Assembly (NCBI RefSeq): GCF_000710615.1
Contig: NZ_JDTH01000002.1
Span: forward strand, 1,356,082-1,420,081
DNA from: Haladaptatus cibarius D43
GTDB taxonomy: Archaea > Halobacteriota > Halobacteria > Halobacteriales > Haladaptataceae
Direction of reading: 5' to 3'
Length of the DNA stretch: 64,000 bases
Under the pieces are notes generated by a model. It worked only from the letters and a program-made list of their open reading frames with translations. It ran no database searches and had not been told where the DNA came from. The stretch's first letter is position 1; each line of letters opens with the position of its first letter. Of the stretch, positions 57,060 to 63,335 are shown in pieces. The position numbers and the translations under genes are program-made.

Positions 57060-58106
57060 TCACCGGCCGAATCTGTCTTTCGGCACCGCGGGGTTCGTCC
57101 GGATTTCGAACCGTGCGCCGCCGGTTTCGCTCCCCGCTACCGCAATCGACCATCCATGTGAATCGATGAGGCTCTCGACGATGGCCAGTCCGAATCCGGT
57201 TCCGTTCTTCTGCGTCGTGTGGCCCATCTCGAACACCTTGTCGCGTATTTCCGCCGGAATCCCGCTTCCGTCGTCCTCGACGAACAATCCGTTTTTCGTT
57301 GCACCGACGGTGATGGTTTCCGCCTCGCCGTGTTCGATTGCGTTTCGGAACAGGTTCTCGAAGACGTGTGCCAGCAAATCCGGATAGCCGTCGAGGATGC
57401 GGTCGTCGGTTCGCGCGAGTTTCACTGCCTCGGTTTCGACGTTCGACCACGCGCTTTCGGTCAGGTTGCTCAGTCGAACCGGTTCTTTGTCCCGTCCCTC
57501 AGTGCCGTACTGCATCAGGGTGAGCGCGCCGTCGATGATGGCCTCCATCCGCAAAAGCGAAGAAAGGATGTCATCGAGATAGTCGTCGTCGGTGTCCATC
57601 GCCAGCATCTTCGCCGACCCCTGTGCCACGGCGAGCGGATTGCGAAGGTCGTGGGAGAGAAGTTTAGCGAATTCCTGTAGTTCCTCGGTTCGCTGGTTTG
57701 ATTTCAGTTCCGCAACCTTTCTCTGTGTAATGTTCTCATGTGCGACGACGAGGTAGTCGTTACCGCGCGACTCGAATCGACTCGCGTGCATCAGAAACCA
57801 GCGTTTCGATTCGGGCGAATGGCACGGATATTCGAACGAAAACGATTCTCGCTCTCCGTCGAGGATTTCTCGAAGCCCCGCAATCGCGGTTCGAGCATAC
57901 TCGTCGTTTGCTTCCGCACAGATGTCGATGTAGTTGTCTCCGACCGTGTCGGCAGGCGGTCGAATATCGTTGGCCCGGCCGAACTCCTGCCACGCCCGGT
58001 TCGAAGCGAGTATCGTCGCATCCGAATCGAGGATGGCGACGTTGAGCGTGAGGGAGTCGAGTGCCGGGCCGAGAAGGTTCCCCGGAATCTGCATCTGTTT
58101 TTTCAT
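57060..58106 (-). CDS. PAS-domain sensor histidine kinase
   Basis: A 348-residue soluble kinase. A PAS domain (about 12-130, LDSLTLNVAILDSDATILAS) precedes a HisKA dimerisation domain with the H-box LLSHDLRNPLAVAQGSA, then a HATPase domain: N-box ENLFRNAIEHGEAE, G1 VEDDGSGIP, G2 GTGFGLAIVES. There is no membrane segment, so the PAS domain senses an internal signal. No cognate receiver is adjacent. I start at the ATG at 58106; a GTG precedes it. Confidence 0.9.
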   Translation of the reverse strand: MKKQMQIPGNLLGPALDSLTLNVAILDSDATILASNRAWQEFGRANDIRPPADTVGDNYIDICAEANDEYARTAIAGLREILDGERESFSFEYPCHSPESKRWFLMHASRFESRGNDYLVVAHENITQRKVAELKSNQRTEELQEFAKLLSHDLRNPLAVAQGSAKMLAMDTDDDYLDDILSSLLRMEAIIDGALTLMQYGTEGRDKEPVRLSNLTESAWSNVETEAVKLARTDDRILDGYPDLLAHVFENLFRNAIEHGEAETITVGATKNGLFVEDDGSGIPAEIRDKVFEMGHTTQKNGTGFGLAIVESLIDSHGWSIAVAGSETGGARFEIRTNPAVPKDRFGR

Positions 58107-58158
58107 CACTCGATTGAAGTACCTATAGTTTTGCCCTTCAGAAGAAAGCAGTCACAAC

Positions 58159-58728
58159 TTAGGTGCCTAACTGGTCGTTCAATCCCCACTCCTCAGCGCG
58201 ACGTTGGGCCTCCTCGCGCGCCTGTTCTCGAATCGCGTCGATTTTCTCGTCATTTTCGAGGAACGCTTCCACCGCGCTGGGCGGGTCGTCTGTCTCTCCA
58301 TCCGAAGTGAGACGGTTTCGTTCCGTCGGTGCTTGCTCTCGCGTCCGGTCGGCTAACTCCGGGTCGCCTGCCAACCGCTTGGCGGGCATTCCCGGCGGAA
58401 TTTCCCAGTCGTACTCGTTCCGTTCTCCGCCTTCGACTGAAGCGAGTTCGTCACCGGACAGTCGAAATAGGTCGATGCTGTACGGCCCGGGCATGGCGAG
58501 GTCAGCGAGTGCAACCGAACCGCCACGATTCGTTCCCGTGTGATACACGAGATTCGGAATACCGGCCTCGAAAGTGATGATACCGTGACCCTCGGCGTCC
58601 AACAGGAGCGAATCCTGCGGTTCGAAGACGGCGTATCCGGTCAGTTCGCGCTCCAGCACGGTTTCGAGCATCGTCGCCGGATGGCTGACGACGCGGGAGC
58701 GAACGAGTTCGCCGCGCGGGAGGTTCAT
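58159..58728 (-). CDS. Haloarchaeal protein coupled to MinD-like ATPase
   Basis: A 189-residue acidic protein I do not assign to a named family. The first half (ELTGYAVFEPQDSLLLDAEG then HGIITFEAGIPNLVYHTGTN) looks like a small beta domain. A disordered middle follows, then a helical, charged end (DAIREQAREEAQRRAEEWG) that may be coiled coil. The start overlaps the MinD-like gene's stop by 4 bases, so the two are translated together and likely act in one system. Function unknown. Confidence 0.75.
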   Translation of the reverse strand: MNLPRGELVRSRVVSHPATMLETVLERELTGYAVFEPQDSLLLDAEGHGIITFEAGIPNLVYHTGTNRGGSVALADLAMPGPYSIDLFRLSGDELASVEGGERNEYDWEIPPGMPAKRLAGDPELADRTREQAPTERNRLTSDGETDDPPSAVEAFLENDEKIDAIREQAREEAQRRAEEWGLNDQLGT

Positions 58729-59498
58729 GGCGAGTCGGGGATGACGGCGCTCCGGAAGCGTTCCGCAACGCCCGCGGAATCACCCGAACGAACGTCGAGG
58801 GTGCTGGCCGCGTTCTTGTACGCCTGTGCCGCCGGACTGTCGGGTGCGTGTGCCAGCAGTGGTTTTCCCGCTTGTCGCGCCGCGCGCGCGGCGTCGTCGT
58901 TGGGAACTGTGGCGAGCGTCGGCCCGCCGAAATAACGTTCGCTCTTGTCGGCAATTGCGGCCACGTTCTCGTCGTCGTGGACTTTGTTGAACAGTACGCC
59001 CGCGGTTCCGGTGCCGTAGGAGCGAGCGTACTCTTGAACCTTCAGACCGTCGCTCAGCGACGGAATCGTCGGTTGGAGGACGACGACGATTCGGTCAGCG
59101 AGGACAATGGGGAGAATCGCGTTTTTACTGCCGAGAGCCGCAGGTGAGTCGAGCAGAAGAACGTCGGTTTCGGCGGCGAGTGTGGCCACCACGTCCTGTA
59201 ATCGGTCGGGGTCGGCGCGTTCGAACGCGGACAAACTGGTACCACAGGGAACGACGCGCATCCCGAACCGTTCGTAGACGGCGTCCTCGACGGGTGCGTC
59301 GGCGTCCTCGATGAGAAGGTCGTGAAGCGTCGTCTCCACGTCGGTTAGCCCCGCGTGAAACAACATATTCGCCATTCCCGTGTCGGCGTCCACGACCGTC
59401 ACGTCGTACTCTTCCGACAAGGCCATTCCGAGCGAGAGCGTGCTCGTGGTCTTCCCAGTTCCTCCTTTGCCGCTCGCAACCGCAAACGCCTCGACCAT
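58725..59498 (-). CDS. MinD/ParA-family ATPase
   Basis: A 257-residue P-loop ATPase with the deviant Walker A KGGTGKTTSTLSL near residues 10-22, switch I VVDADTGMANML, and the Walker B region VLLLDSPAALGSKNA. The C-terminus (NNPDD-like VPNDDAARAARQAGKPLLAH) is typical of MinD-like proteins. There is no clear amphipathic membrane-targeting helix at the end. Haloarchaea encode several MinD homologs, some placing archaella or chemosensory arrays. The downstream partner gene may be its cargo or adaptor. Confidence 0.88.
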   Translation of the reverse strand: MVEAFAVASGKGGTGKTTSTLSLGMALSEEYDVTVVDADTGMANMLFHAGLTDVETTLHDLLIEDADAPVEDAVYERFGMRVVPCGTSLSAFERADPDRLQDVVATLAAETDVLLLDSPAALGSKNAILPIVLADRIVVVLQPTIPSLSDGLKVQEYARSYGTGTAGVLFNKVHDDENVAAIADKSERYFGGPTLATVPNDDAARAARQAGKPLLAHAPDSPAAQAYKNAASTLDVRSGDSAGVAERFRSAVIPDSP

Positions 59499-59951: not shown

Positions 59952-60302
59952 ATGAGCCCTCCAGAAGTCGACCTTGCCACGCCGCCCCTCGCGCAGGTGT
60001 TCGTCTATCCTGCACGCGTGAAGTTCCTCGCGGTGCTCGCGGACAACCCCGACGAGAGCTTTAGCGCGACCGAACTGGCGGAACACGCCGGAACCGCCGC
60101 CAGCACGTGGACGAGCCACCGGGACGACCTCCTCGAACTTGAATTGGTGGACGAAATCGACACAGACGGGGCGTATCCCGAATATTCGCTCGCTCCGACG
60201 GCCCACGCACAACTTCTCCGCCAACTGTCCGAGGACATCGACGCCGTCCTCTACGAACTCAACGACCCACTTTCTGACGCAATCGGCGGTTTCGCCCAGT
60301 GA
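59952..60302 (+). CDS. Winged-helix transcriptional regulator
   Basis: A 116-residue ArsR-like winged-helix protein. ARVKFLAVLADNPDESFSAT and LAEHAGTAASTWTSHRDDL form the first helices and the recognition helix. The wing is VDEIDTDGAYPEYSLAPTAH, and a short dimer helix closes the protein. It has no metal-binding Cys pair. It lies 109 bases upstream of the small-peptide gene on the same strand and is the natural candidate regulator of the peptide/CHAT module. Confidence 0.85.
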   Translation: MSPPEVDLATPPLAQVFVYPARVKFLAVLADNPDESFSATELAEHAGTAASTWTSHRDDLLELELVDEIDTDGAYPEYSLAPTAHAQLLRQLSEDIDAVLYELNDPLSDAIGGFAQ

Positions 60303-60377
60303 GACGCCCGAATACGAATTGATGCTATTTTTTAAATACTTACTATTATTAATTTTGACTCCGTATTATTAAAAAAA

Positions 60378-60383
60378 TTATAA
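60378..60383 (+). promoter_or_regulatory. TATA candidate of the small-peptide gene
   Basis: TTATAA lies about 31 bases before the ATG at 60412, giving a transcript start around 60405-60410 and a near-leaderless message. The surrounding 80 bases are very AT-rich. A second TATA-like TTTAAATA lies at 60331-60338, so two starts are possible. Confidence 0.4.
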
Positions 60384-60411
60384 GAAAGAAGGGCCACATG
60401 TCTTAGTTGCA

Positions 60412-60543
60412 ATGGCGACAAAAAACTCGATTGGGGAATTCGTTGCACAGCATCCACGACTACTCGGCGTCCTGTTCGCACTTAGCACGTTGTTGGTTCA
60501 AGCAGGGAGTGTGATTGCAGATGGTGCAAATAGCGGCCCGTAG
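60412..60543 (+). CDS. 43-residue membrane or signal-like peptide (DUF7503-like)
   Basis: A 43-residue protein starting MATKNSIGEFVAQHPRLLGV, then a hydrophobic helix (LLGVLFALSTLLVQAGSVIA) and a short polar tail DGANSGP. It resembles small haloarchaeal proteins annotated DUF7503 (from memory). The layout, a polar start, hydrophobic core and possible cut after VIA, is also that of a signal peptide that would release a heptapeptide, but a plain membrane peptide is equally possible. Its stop codon abuts the stop of the CHAT gene on the other strand, with no base between them. It is too short for ordinary gene finders. Confidence 0.75.
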   Translation: MATKNSIGEFVAQHPRLLGVLFALSTLLVQAGSVIADGANSGP

Positions 60544-62631
60544 CTAGTTAATATCAGATATTTGTAATTCGTCGCTCCAGTAAAGCTGATTTTCAACTTC
60601 AACCGGTCTAACTTCGTACGAAATCCAAGATTTAAGTTCTTCTATAGATAGATTTACTGTTGTTAGGGGTGCCGAGGCGATATACCGTTCTTGCGACCAA
60701 TCGGGATGAAAATTAACATGAGTTCCAAACCCGTGTATATCAGTCGGGTATGTATTGACCACAACCTCGAACCGGTCGTTTTTAACTCGCTTGATTTTGA
60801 GATGATGTGGTAGTCCGCTCTCACACTGGACTAACGACAACCCACCATCTCCGAGCACAGTATACTGATAGCCGTACACTGATTGCTTTCGTGCAATCGA
60901 CAGCGCGGCGCGAAGAGGAAAACCACAGTTTAGGAGTCGAGCCAGTATTTTGCCCAGTTTCGTCGCCGACGGATTGCCGATGGGGGAAAGCGTGGCGACG
61001 CCGCCGCGACTTCCCTTTTTGATGAGTTCGTACCCCTGCTGGTAGGACTCACAGGCGTTCAGGAGGAATGCGGTGGCGTTGACCTCCGTGAGGGTATGCG
61101 CGTCGAGCGACCCGTCGGCGCAGAGAAACCCGCGGTCGTCGATGTGGCCGATGTAGTGGACGAAATCGGACTGCCGAGCGAGCAGTTCCCGGAGTTCGTC
61201 CTGCGTGAGGTCGTAGTGGGCGGTCACGTCGAAATCGAGGAACTCCCGAACGCCGTACAGTTCCTTCACCACGTCCTCGTCCAGCATTTTGTCGTCGTTA
61301 CAGACGACGTGAATGTCGATGGTGTCCGAGGTCGGAACGCGGTCAACTCGTCGCTCAAGCGCGGACAAATCGAGTTTGTTGACCTTGAGAGGGAATCCCG
61401 GCCCGGCCCACGCCTGTTCGATGACGTTCGGCATCGAATCAACCTGAAACACGTCCCGGTCGTCCACCGCGTCCCAGCCCTTCGTCCCGCGAGCCAGCAC
61501 GCCGGATGGCGGCGCGCGGAAGAACTCGCTCTGAGCGTCCGACATGGGTTTGACCGAGTTGGGATTCGGGCTGTCGGGAAGCCGAACGAGCGCGAGGTTG
61601 TCCGCGAGGTACGGGAGATATTCCGCGTTTTCGACCGTCGGTGTGAGGTCAACGCCGAGTCGCCAGTTTGGGATGTACGGTTCGAGCGTTTCGAACGGAA
61701 CCGATAGATACGCGGCGAGACGCGCCGTCAACGGCGCGTCGTACAGTGCAGAAAAGTCGAGGTCAACGAGCGGTTCGACTTGCTCGCGTTCGTGCAAGTC
61801 AACTTGATAGTATCCCTCGGTTCGAGTAAGACAGTCGAGGAAAAACGTCTGGCGAAGGACGCGGTTGACCGCGTTTTCGTAGCTGTCGCCAGCGGTAAGT
61901 TCGTGCTCGAACTCGTCCGCGACCAATCGCGGACGAGTTCCTGTCTCCGGAACGACCTCCCCGCCGAGATAATACGCGAGCGAGGCCAGCGGGAAGACGT
62001 GTTCCCTGTCTGGGGGGACGACAAGTGAAACACCCGTATCGGGTCGAACCAGCCCATCCGGCGCGTCGAATTGTTCCGCGCGCTTGATAAGTGGCGGATG
62101 TCCCCGCAGGGTCGGAAACGAGCGCTCCGGACTCGTCGTTTTCAGCGCCGACCCGGAGAGAGAAAGCGCGCGCATCACGTCCTCTACGTCGTCGGTAACG
62201 GTTATCGTCCCCGCCGGTCGGTCGTGGTAGGAGCGTGCACCCACACGCACGGACGTTTCGGCTCCGAAGTCGAGGACGACCGCACCGTCGCGCTGTTTGA
62301 GACGGAATCCGCTTTCGACGCCGAGGTACAGCTTCATCGGGGCCGTACTCAGTTCGATGAGATAGGTTCCGGGTTCGACGCTCCGGTTGTTGCCGTCGGA
62401 GGTTTCGGCCACCATCTCCCCGTCCTGCGTTCGAATGGTGACGGGAAGCAGTTTCGGTACGCAGAGCGTCACGGTTTTGACGGCAACCGCGGCATCGACC
62501 GGAAAGTAGAACCGTTTGGTCGAAACTGCCGTCGGCTGAACGGAACCGGAGGTGTAGAGTGCGAAGCGAACGTTCTCGATAGGGTCGTAAACGTCGAGTC
62601 CGTCGCGCTCGGGATGCCGCCGAAACTCCAT
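60544..62631 (-). CDS. CHAT-domain protease (caspase-like)
   Basis: A 695-residue protein with a C-terminal CHAT domain at about 430-595. The catalytic dyad is His496 (SDFVHYIGHIDDRGFL) and Cys527 (TAFLLNACESYQQG), followed by KGSRGGVATLSPIGNPSA, the Gly-Ala strand of the fold. Residues 1-130 look beta-rich and could bind ligand; 130-430 have no family I recognise. A beta-rich tail follows the protease domain. No signal peptide or membrane helix is seen. It starts 20 bases after the DUF7504-like gene, probably in one transcript. CHAT proteases elsewhere act in immune or signalling roles; the target here is unknown. Confidence 0.8.
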   Translation of the reverse strand: MEFRRHPERDGLDVYDPIENVRFALYTSGSVQPTAVSTKRFYFPVDAAVAVKTVTLCVPKLLPVTIRTQDGEMVAETSDGNNRSVEPGTYLIELSTAPMKLYLGVESGFRLKQRDGAVVLDFGAETSVRVGARSYHDRPAGTITVTDDVEDVMRALSLSGSALKTTSPERSFPTLRGHPPLIKRAEQFDAPDGLVRPDTGVSLVVPPDREHVFPLASLAYYLGGEVVPETGTRPRLVADEFEHELTAGDSYENAVNRVLRQTFFLDCLTRTEGYYQVDLHEREQVEPLVDLDFSALYDAPLTARLAAYLSVPFETLEPYIPNWRLGVDLTPTVENAEYLPYLADNLALVRLPDSPNPNSVKPMSDAQSEFFRAPPSGVLARGTKGWDAVDDRDVFQVDSMPNVIEQAWAGPGFPLKVNKLDLSALERRVDRVPTSDTIDIHVVCNDDKMLDEDVVKELYGVREFLDFDVTAHYDLTQDELRELLARQSDFVHYIGHIDDRGFLCADGSLDAHTLTEVNATAFLLNACESYQQGYELIKKGSRGGVATLSPIGNPSATKLGKILARLLNCGFPLRAALSIARKQSVYGYQYTVLGDGGLSLVQCESGLPHHLKIKRVKNDRFEVVVNTYPTDIHGFGTHVNFHPDWSQERYIASAPLTTVNLSIEELKSWISYEVRPVEVENQLYWSDELQISDIN

Positions 62632-62651
62632 AGCGAAGGTATGTGAGTCAG

Positions 62652-63335
62652 CTATGATAGTTCTACCCAGTGGGTCGTCTCACCGAGGTCGGGAACGTGC
62701 CATCGCTGCTCTGCCAAACCGGGCCGCTTGCGCAGTTCGATACGCGCGTCGAACAGCGGAGACAGTTCTTCTACGAGCGGGTCGTCGTCTGCCACTCGAA
62801 GATGATAGTGCGCCATGCCGTGGACACCGCGGACGATTGCGGTGAGTCCGCGAAGGAACTGGGAAAGGGAGACGATGTCGTCCCCACCGGACAGCACTTC
62901 GACGGAATCGATTCCGAGGCGAAGTTCCGCGGGCGAAAAGCCATCGTTTTGGTCGTCGTACTGACTGATTACGGAAATTAGCTCGGAACGAAGCGTTTCC
63001 CGTGAAACGTTCTGTACGGAGTCGGTTTTTTCGTCGCTCTTCGTGGCGCGATATTCAGTTCGTCGGTCGATGACGCGGGTGTCCGGGGAGTTCGGTTCGA
63101 CCGGAAGGTGCGAGTCTGCACCGAGTGCGGTGGGGTTCGTAAGCGCGAGCACGCGCGTTCGTCGCCCCTGTCCGAAGAGCGTCCGACTGAATGCGGCGCT
63201 CGTCTCTTTCGGCACGTCGCCGGTAACGAGGAGATTGCTGCCACTCGTTTTCAGCCCCGCAAGCCACTCAGTGAACTGCACGTCCTGCGTCGAACCCTCG
63301 CCCGACCCGCTTCGAAATTCGAGACGAGAACTCAT
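62652..63335 (-). CDS. DUF7504-like degenerate KaiC/RecA-fold protein
   Basis: A 227-residue protein resembling haloarchaeal DUF7504 (from memory), a family related to KaiC-like ATPases. The expected P-loop region reads NLLVTGDVPKETSAAF, without the GKT/S of a Walker A, so ATP hydrolysis is unlikely. ELRLGIDSVEVLSGGDDIVS resembles the later RecA-fold strand that carries Walker B. I start at the ATG at 63335 rather than 63359. It is the upstream gene of the pair with the CHAT protease and may be its regulator or adaptor. Confidence 0.72.
   Translation of the reverse strand: MSSRLEFRSGSGEGSTQDVQFTEWLAGLKTSGSNLLVTGDVPKETSAAFSRTLFGQGRRTRVLALTNPTALGADSHLPVEPNSPDTRVIDRRTEYRATKSDEKTDSVQNVSRETLRSELISVISQYDDQNDGFSPAELRLGIDSVEVLSGGDDIVSLSQFLRGLTAIVRGVHGMAHYHLRVADDDPLVEELSPLFDARIELRKRPGLAEQRWHVPDLGETTHWVELS

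Follow-up and report, generated by a model that had tools for sequence, protein, structure and literature searches.

Introduction

Several described systems contain a protease or protein with a CHAT domain. The CHAT protease Csx29 binds its substrate Csx30 via the C-terminal part of Csx30 (PMC10028731), and the CHAT protein HetF of heterocyst-forming cyanobacteria has a regulatory and not a defence role (PMC8406250). For haloarchaea, a specific caspase-like activity that is induced by salt stress in Haloferax volcanii was described more than a decade ago by Bidle and colleagues, and this stress-linked activity, found also in other archaea, has stayed without an assigned gene (PMC3615174). Here we describe a haloarchaeal CHAT protease gene and the gene that faces it, which encodes a peptide of the family DUF7503. 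Both lie in a stretch of 64,000 nucleotides (nt) of Haladaptatus cibarius D43 (contig NZ_JDTH01000002.1, positions 1,356,082 to 1,420,081), hereafter called the window.

A first-pass annotation of the window had proposed that four adjacent genes form one system: a winged-helix regulator, the small peptide, the CHAT protease and a KaiC-like protein. All four open reading frames (ORFs) are present where it had placed them. In this study we found that the real unit is the pair of the CHAT gene and the gene of the approx. 40-residue DUF7503 peptide. The two almost certainly form a working pair, which to our knowledge has not been described before. In our literature search, the coverage of which was incomplete, no mention of DUF7503, DUF7504 or a haloarchaeal CHAT domain was found.

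Pairing of CHAT and DUF7503 genes in the class Halobacteria

The survey comprised 242 genomes of the class Halobacteria, which are related to each other and unevenly sampled. CHAT was found in 223 and the DUF7503 peptide in 204 of them, and the peptide was absent from all 19 genomes without CHAT (Fisher p 5e-18, a value that is descriptive since the genomes are related). Few CHAT candidates were scored per genome, so that the paralog counts are minimal. Among 218 CHAT homologs, 172 of the 193 CHAT1 genes with an intact dyad faced a peptide gene, a proportion that is enriched for pairs because some loci were retrieved through their peptide and others through their CHAT; in the CHAT-first sample, inspected with flanks, the peptide gene was convergent with CHAT in 70 of 80 loci. 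The distance from stop codon to stop codon in the 172 pairs had a median of 2 nt, with 38 pairs overlapping and 115 lying within 10 nt. None of 352 control genes had a comparable ORF within 50 nt, thus the adjacency is beyond chance. The lone match within 400 nt of a control gene was itself a DUF7503 peptide.

The two families therefore co-occur near-perfectly across genomes and their tail-to-tail adjacency recurs throughout the class, which bears out the earlier idea that peptide and protease belong together. As a unit the four-gene set did not hold. The winged helix-turn-helix (wHTH) gene was found in only 5 of the 80 loci, all from Haladaptatus, and was rejected as a component of the system. 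DUF7504, the family of the KaiC-like protein, was present in 242/242 genomes, usually in several copies, and its gene lay directly upstream of CHAT in 40 of the 80 loci.

In the window the stop codon of the peptide gene (60541-60543) directly abuts that of the CHAT gene (60544-60546). The same genome contains six CHAT genes and five peptide genes, and every peptide gene is tail-to-tail with a CHAT gene (five of the six CHATs are paired). This genome is close to Haladaptatus litoreus, with 92% identity to the nearest CHAT relative. Some loci deviated from the one-to-one arrangement. Two near-identical peptide genes stood in tandem behind a single CHAT gene at L011 (G012:C1:486534-486796), whereas CHAT genes in tandem, two or three in number and with no peptide, were seen at L109, L111 and L331, in Haladaptatus and another genus. 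The CHAT gene of Haladaptatus halobius (L133) was split over several frames and is an apparent pseudogene.

The CHAT protease

With Pfam PF12770 (CHAT) the protease scored 17.7 bits, below the cut-off of 24, which is a detection threshold and not a biological trait; for this reason the assignment was examined at the level of structure. The protein's AlphaFold model had a mean predicted local distance difference test score (pLDDT) of 71, and residues ~326-603 adopted a clan CD fold (separase/CHAT/caspase). Separase, gingipain, SAVED-CHAT and Craspase matched the model at VIA Z 13-15 over ~160-225 residues, and caspases (caspase-3/7) at a VIA Z of about 9. The full His/Cys dyad noted in the first-pass annotation was confirmed: His496 and Cys527 were invariant in an alignment of 22 sequences, and the dyad was present in every paired CHAT that could be aligned at these positions, so that it is conserved, and most homologs have not lost it. 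We concluded that the protease is a diverged branch of the CHAT/clan CD cysteine proteases, placed there by its dyad and its modelled fold, and that it is predicted to be proteolytic.

The best structural match of the N-terminal region, a mutarotase-like or YidC P1-like supersandwich, reached VIA Z 8.0, which is within the range of common arrangements and not conclusive. For this region no viral match was detected below E 0.001, and a search of viral contigs returned no CHAT relative. A sequence search of the PDB with the CHAT profile gave no useful match.

The peptide and its Gly-Pro end

The window peptide matched Pfam PF24335 (DUF7503) with E=3e-16 (59 bits, cut-off 27). We aligned 145 distinct peptides of the Gly-Pro (GP) type from the C-terminus. 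The terminal G-P is preceded, going inward, by about six variable and almost uncharged residues, an A-rich stretch (A at -10 in 117/145), the hydrophobic core and an (H/N)P(R/K) segment. Positively charged residues (K/R) were found before the core and hardly any after it. An n-, h- and AxA-like c-region as in signal peptides could be recognised in 145/145, by an AxA criterion that is permissive in an Ala-rich peptide.

The GP end was present in 150 of the 172 paired peptides detected with the hidden Markov model (HMM). It also occurred in the non-overlapping pairs (115 pairs) and was kept in 39 of the 49 pairs that lie 11-600 nt apart, thus it is not a by-product of overlapping stop codons. 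Codon differences were counted in 77 close pairs of GP-ending peptides. At the GP codons 91 synonymous and 0 non-synonymous differences were found; the peptides had been picked for this ending, so that the zero is partly built in and the 150/172 is the independent measure. The corresponding synonymous and non-synonymous counts were 525 and 380 in the core and 114 and 239 in the tail. The ratio in the core supports translation and purifying selection, and the tail evolves fast, via diversifying or relaxed selection.

Many of the clades whose peptides lack GP have NGC and not NAC at the CHAT active site. This association between tail type and active-site motif was seen, but the two traits are distributed along the tree, with 8 and 10 changes, so it is not independent evidence and was not used.

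Natural variants of the pair

Some CHAT paralogs lack the dyad (L316-L323, L330). Their length is conserved and many come from one genus; they are probable pseudo-proteases. No peptide was found anywhere in the 7-9 kb fetched for each of these loci.

A second subfamily, CHAT2 (L332-L348), has the motifs GHC and NACGS and a conserved neighbourhood, with genes that we take to be glyA on one side and one resembling tbsP on the other. CHAT2 loci were largely negative with the peptide HMM. In the CHAT2 loci L337, L338, L342 and L343, a direct ORF search revealed hydrophobic ORFs with a GP end at -4 to +15 nt, and it found further ones beside the HMM-negative CHATs L107 and L123. In all, 8 of 43 HMM-negative CHATs had such an ORF at -16 to +15 nt, compared with 0/352 control genes within 50 nt; those at L157 and L345, which are among the eight, are weak and may be due to chance. 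As these ORFs lie beside very diverged CHATs, the position of the peptide and its terminal GP seem to outlast recognisable similarity.

In Haloplanus the gene at the peptide position encodes a soluble tandem-repeat protein without a hydrophobic segment (L015, L016, L019, L020, L022, L153, L166). It contains a 13-residue unit that ends in SGP, such as TADGNSGGISGPY, in 2, 4, 5, 7, 10 or 13 copies. The ADGNxGGISGP-like units match the tails of ordinary peptides, such as GNHGAISGP and GNGGGVAGP, and the region upstream of the repeat gene, which includes the element CTCGAAAAATTATA, is similar to the one that precedes a normal peptide gene at L129. What the Haloplanus protein and the ordinary peptides share is the tail and not the hydrophobic segment. 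Distant CHAT relatives from outside the class (L324-L327, one family in the phylum, most with the dyad) had no peptide.

Features of the locus and neighbouring genes

Features of the CHAT/DUF7503 locus, in window positions
Feature	Position	Strand	Remark
Small winged-helix/ArsR-like regulator (wHTH), 116 amino acids (aa)	59952..60302	+	ORF; HTH matches weak; lineage-specific neighbour, not a conserved part
B recognition element (BRE)/TATA-like promoter of the peptide gene, taaaaaaattataa	60370..60383	+	From sequence; ~30 nt 5' of ATG
DUF7503 peptide, 43 aa	60412..60543	+	Short n-region with HPR, hydrophobic core, A-rich segment, variable tail, terminal Gly-Pro
Gly-Pro codons of the DUF7503 peptide	60535-60540	+	
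CHAT (caspase-like, clan CD) cysteine protease, 695 aa	60544..62631	-	
Catalytic His496 codon of CHAT	61144..61146	-	Invariant in alignment
Catalytic Cys527 codon of CHAT	61051..61053	-	From alignment; motif LNAC (NGC in some relatives)
N-terminal non-CHAT region, aa 1-326	61654..62631	-	First 138 residues beta-rich; AlphaFold mean pLDDT 92.8
DUF7504, KaiC-like protein without Walker A	62652..63335	-	Probably heads an operon with CHAT, which follows after 20 nt

The position of the promoter element makes it probable that the peptide transcript is leaderless, as judged from this sequence and from known haloarchaeal promoters. An AT-rich element like taaaaaaattataa precedes many of the peptide genes.

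The KaiC-like protein matched Pfam PF24336 (DUF7504) with E=1e-46 (159.6 bits, cut-off 27), so that Pfam confirmed both the peptide and this protein as family members. Its earlier description as a KaiC-fold protein without a Walker A agrees with the alignment, in which no P-loop was found; the DUF7504 profile matched essentially KaiC alone, and weakly. A HalX response regulator gene was found behind the peptide gene in 11 of the 80 loci. In Haloferax, Halobellus and Haloplanus, a HalX-type regulator gene lies upstream of and co-directional with the peptide gene (L150, L151, L156, L160, L132, L135, L136, L166). DUF7504 and the HalX regulators suggest regulation of the pair by a signal.

No Pfam family above cut-off was obtained for the wHTH protein. 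Adjoining its gene, at 57060-59498, are co-directional genes for a PAS histidine kinase, a 189-aa unknown protein and a MinD-like ATPase, for which no link to CHAT was seen.

Proposed mechanism and alternatives

We propose that CHAT and the peptide are a dedicated pair, in which CHAT recognises the C-terminal Gly-Pro tail of DUF7503, most likely as a substrate, and to this proposal as a whole we give an even chance. The GP tail would enter the CHAT domain on the side of the active site; once the protease has been switched on, it would cut the peptide near the tail. The hydrophobic segment would normally put the peptide into the membrane or send it through, and the controlling signal would reach the pair through DUF7504, in some genera together with a HalX response regulator. 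We observed that the two genes are constantly paired tail to tail, that the dyad is conserved, that GP is strictly selected, that dyad-less paralogs have no peptide and that the tail is repeated in Haloplanus; we infer that the two proteins bind directly and that the peptide is cleaved, as well as the cut site, the signal that does the switching and a downstream effect. The first-pass annotation had considered the peptide a possible trigger or substrate of the protease. This idea was strengthened by the GP end, by the absence of the peptide beside dyad-less CHATs and by the Haloplanus repeats.

Four observations weigh against the proposal. Positive charges before the core, with hardly any after it, predict an external tail, which a cytosolic protease could not reach once the peptide is inserted; either CHAT and peptide would meet before insertion, or insertion would hide the tail. 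In 22 of the 172 peptides GP is missing (tails such as GNGGTIS), and many of these are grouped in few CHAT clades. The dyad-less paralogs are few and related, so the absence of the peptide beside them represents only few independent events. Finally, no peptide could be recognised for 21 of the intact CHAT1 genes and for the majority of CHAT2 genes, thus the protease also has roles or partners besides this one.

The peptide could instead be a dedicated antitoxin-like inhibitor, whose GP tail plugs the active site and silences a harmful protease. Its strict dependence on CHAT, its absence beside dead CHATs and its own strong-looking promoter would all fit. The same holds for the Haloplanus tail repeats without spacers, which would raise the capacity, as repeats do in repeat-bearing protease inhibitors. 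However, the genes are convergent, whereas most toxin-antitoxin pairs share an operon; some intact CHAT genes do without a recognisable peptide, and an inhibitor would not need a membrane or signal segment. We regard an inhibitor as unlikely.

To the reading of the peptide as a secreted oligopeptide signal we give a rather small chance: a Sec signal peptide would free a GP-ending tail of 7-10 residues, and CHAT would mature it or belong to the response. The signal-peptide-like regions in all GP peptides speak for this, as do the uncharged, fast-evolving tail and the Haloplanus tail units, the repetition of which resembles a multi-copy pheromone precursor. Yet the Haloplanus form has no hydrophobic export segment, no receptor or transporter adjoins consistently, and the HPRMxG segment shows more conservation than would be required of a plain signal peptide, besides the permissive AxA criterion.

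A small chance at best is left for a role of the peptide as membrane anchor or platform, on which CHAT molecules would assemble and become active by proximity, with the Haloplanus repeat protein as a soluble scaffold in the same role. A single hydrophobic segment with a constant short motif, the multivalent Haloplanus form and a filament-forming CHAT relative (8tl0) among the top fold matches are consistent with this, but the tail is predicted outside. A link at the level of DNA or RNA only, where overlapping convergent transcripts regulate each other and the peptide sequence is secondary, is very improbable: the stop codons do abut or overlap in most loci, but GP is kept in pairs that lie 11-600 nt apart, its codons change only synonymously, and Haloplanus preserves the protein tail and not the length.

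Comparison with known systems

DUF7503 was found in the genome of H. volcanii, and CHAT with a peptide in four other Haloferax species. The pair could explain the orphan haloarchaeal caspase-like activity, which was reported from biochemistry only. A bolder version of the substrate proposal is a near-universal caspase-like switch, and we hold it to be rather improbable. The peptide would be a bait that is normally inserted or exported; failure at the membrane or in export under stress would leave the tail inside, where it would engage CHAT, and this CHAT would be the gene behind the stress-linked activity of Haloferax. As the pair is present in most haloarchaeal genomes and the peptide family in the model H. 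volcanii, both the question of the gene and the role of the peptide are testable, with GP-less tails, dyad-less paralogs and the Haloplanus tail repeats as ready-made natural mutants.

Type II toxin-antitoxin systems are co-directional operons, a trait that the convergent CHAT and peptide genes do not share. No PADLOC model matched CHAT or DUF7504 at E 0.01. Cas7-11, Csx30/31 and TPR-CHAT were not found among the tested neighbours in the window, and no such conserved cluster of neighbours was found in 79 loci. By its gene content, the PADLOC result and the convergent layout, the pair is neither a Craspase, nor a PADLOC-listed defence system, nor an operonic toxin-antitoxin.

HetF is likewise a CHAT protease, but it differs by its TPR and transmembrane regions and by its other partners; we know of no DUF7503-like gene alongside HetF. 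SAVED-CHAT, an effector protease that is activated as a filament, ranked with the top structural matches of the CHAT domain. In the haloarchaeal protein no SAVED domain was recognised; its N-terminal region is another kind of domain, which is rich in beta structure.

The pair resembles Craspase (Csx29/Csx30, type III-E clustered regularly interspaced short palindromic repeats, CRISPR) in that a cysteine protease of CHAT fold has a dedicated neighbouring partner that is recognised C-terminally (PMC10028731). The recognition of Csx30 by Csx29 is thus a precedent for a CHAT protease that would read the GP tail. In contrast to Craspase, the haloarchaeal pair has no Cas7-11, RNA trigger or TPR, and in place of a 565-residue anti-sigma factor the partner is a hydrophobic peptide of 40 residues, an unusually small dedicated partner for a CHAT protease.

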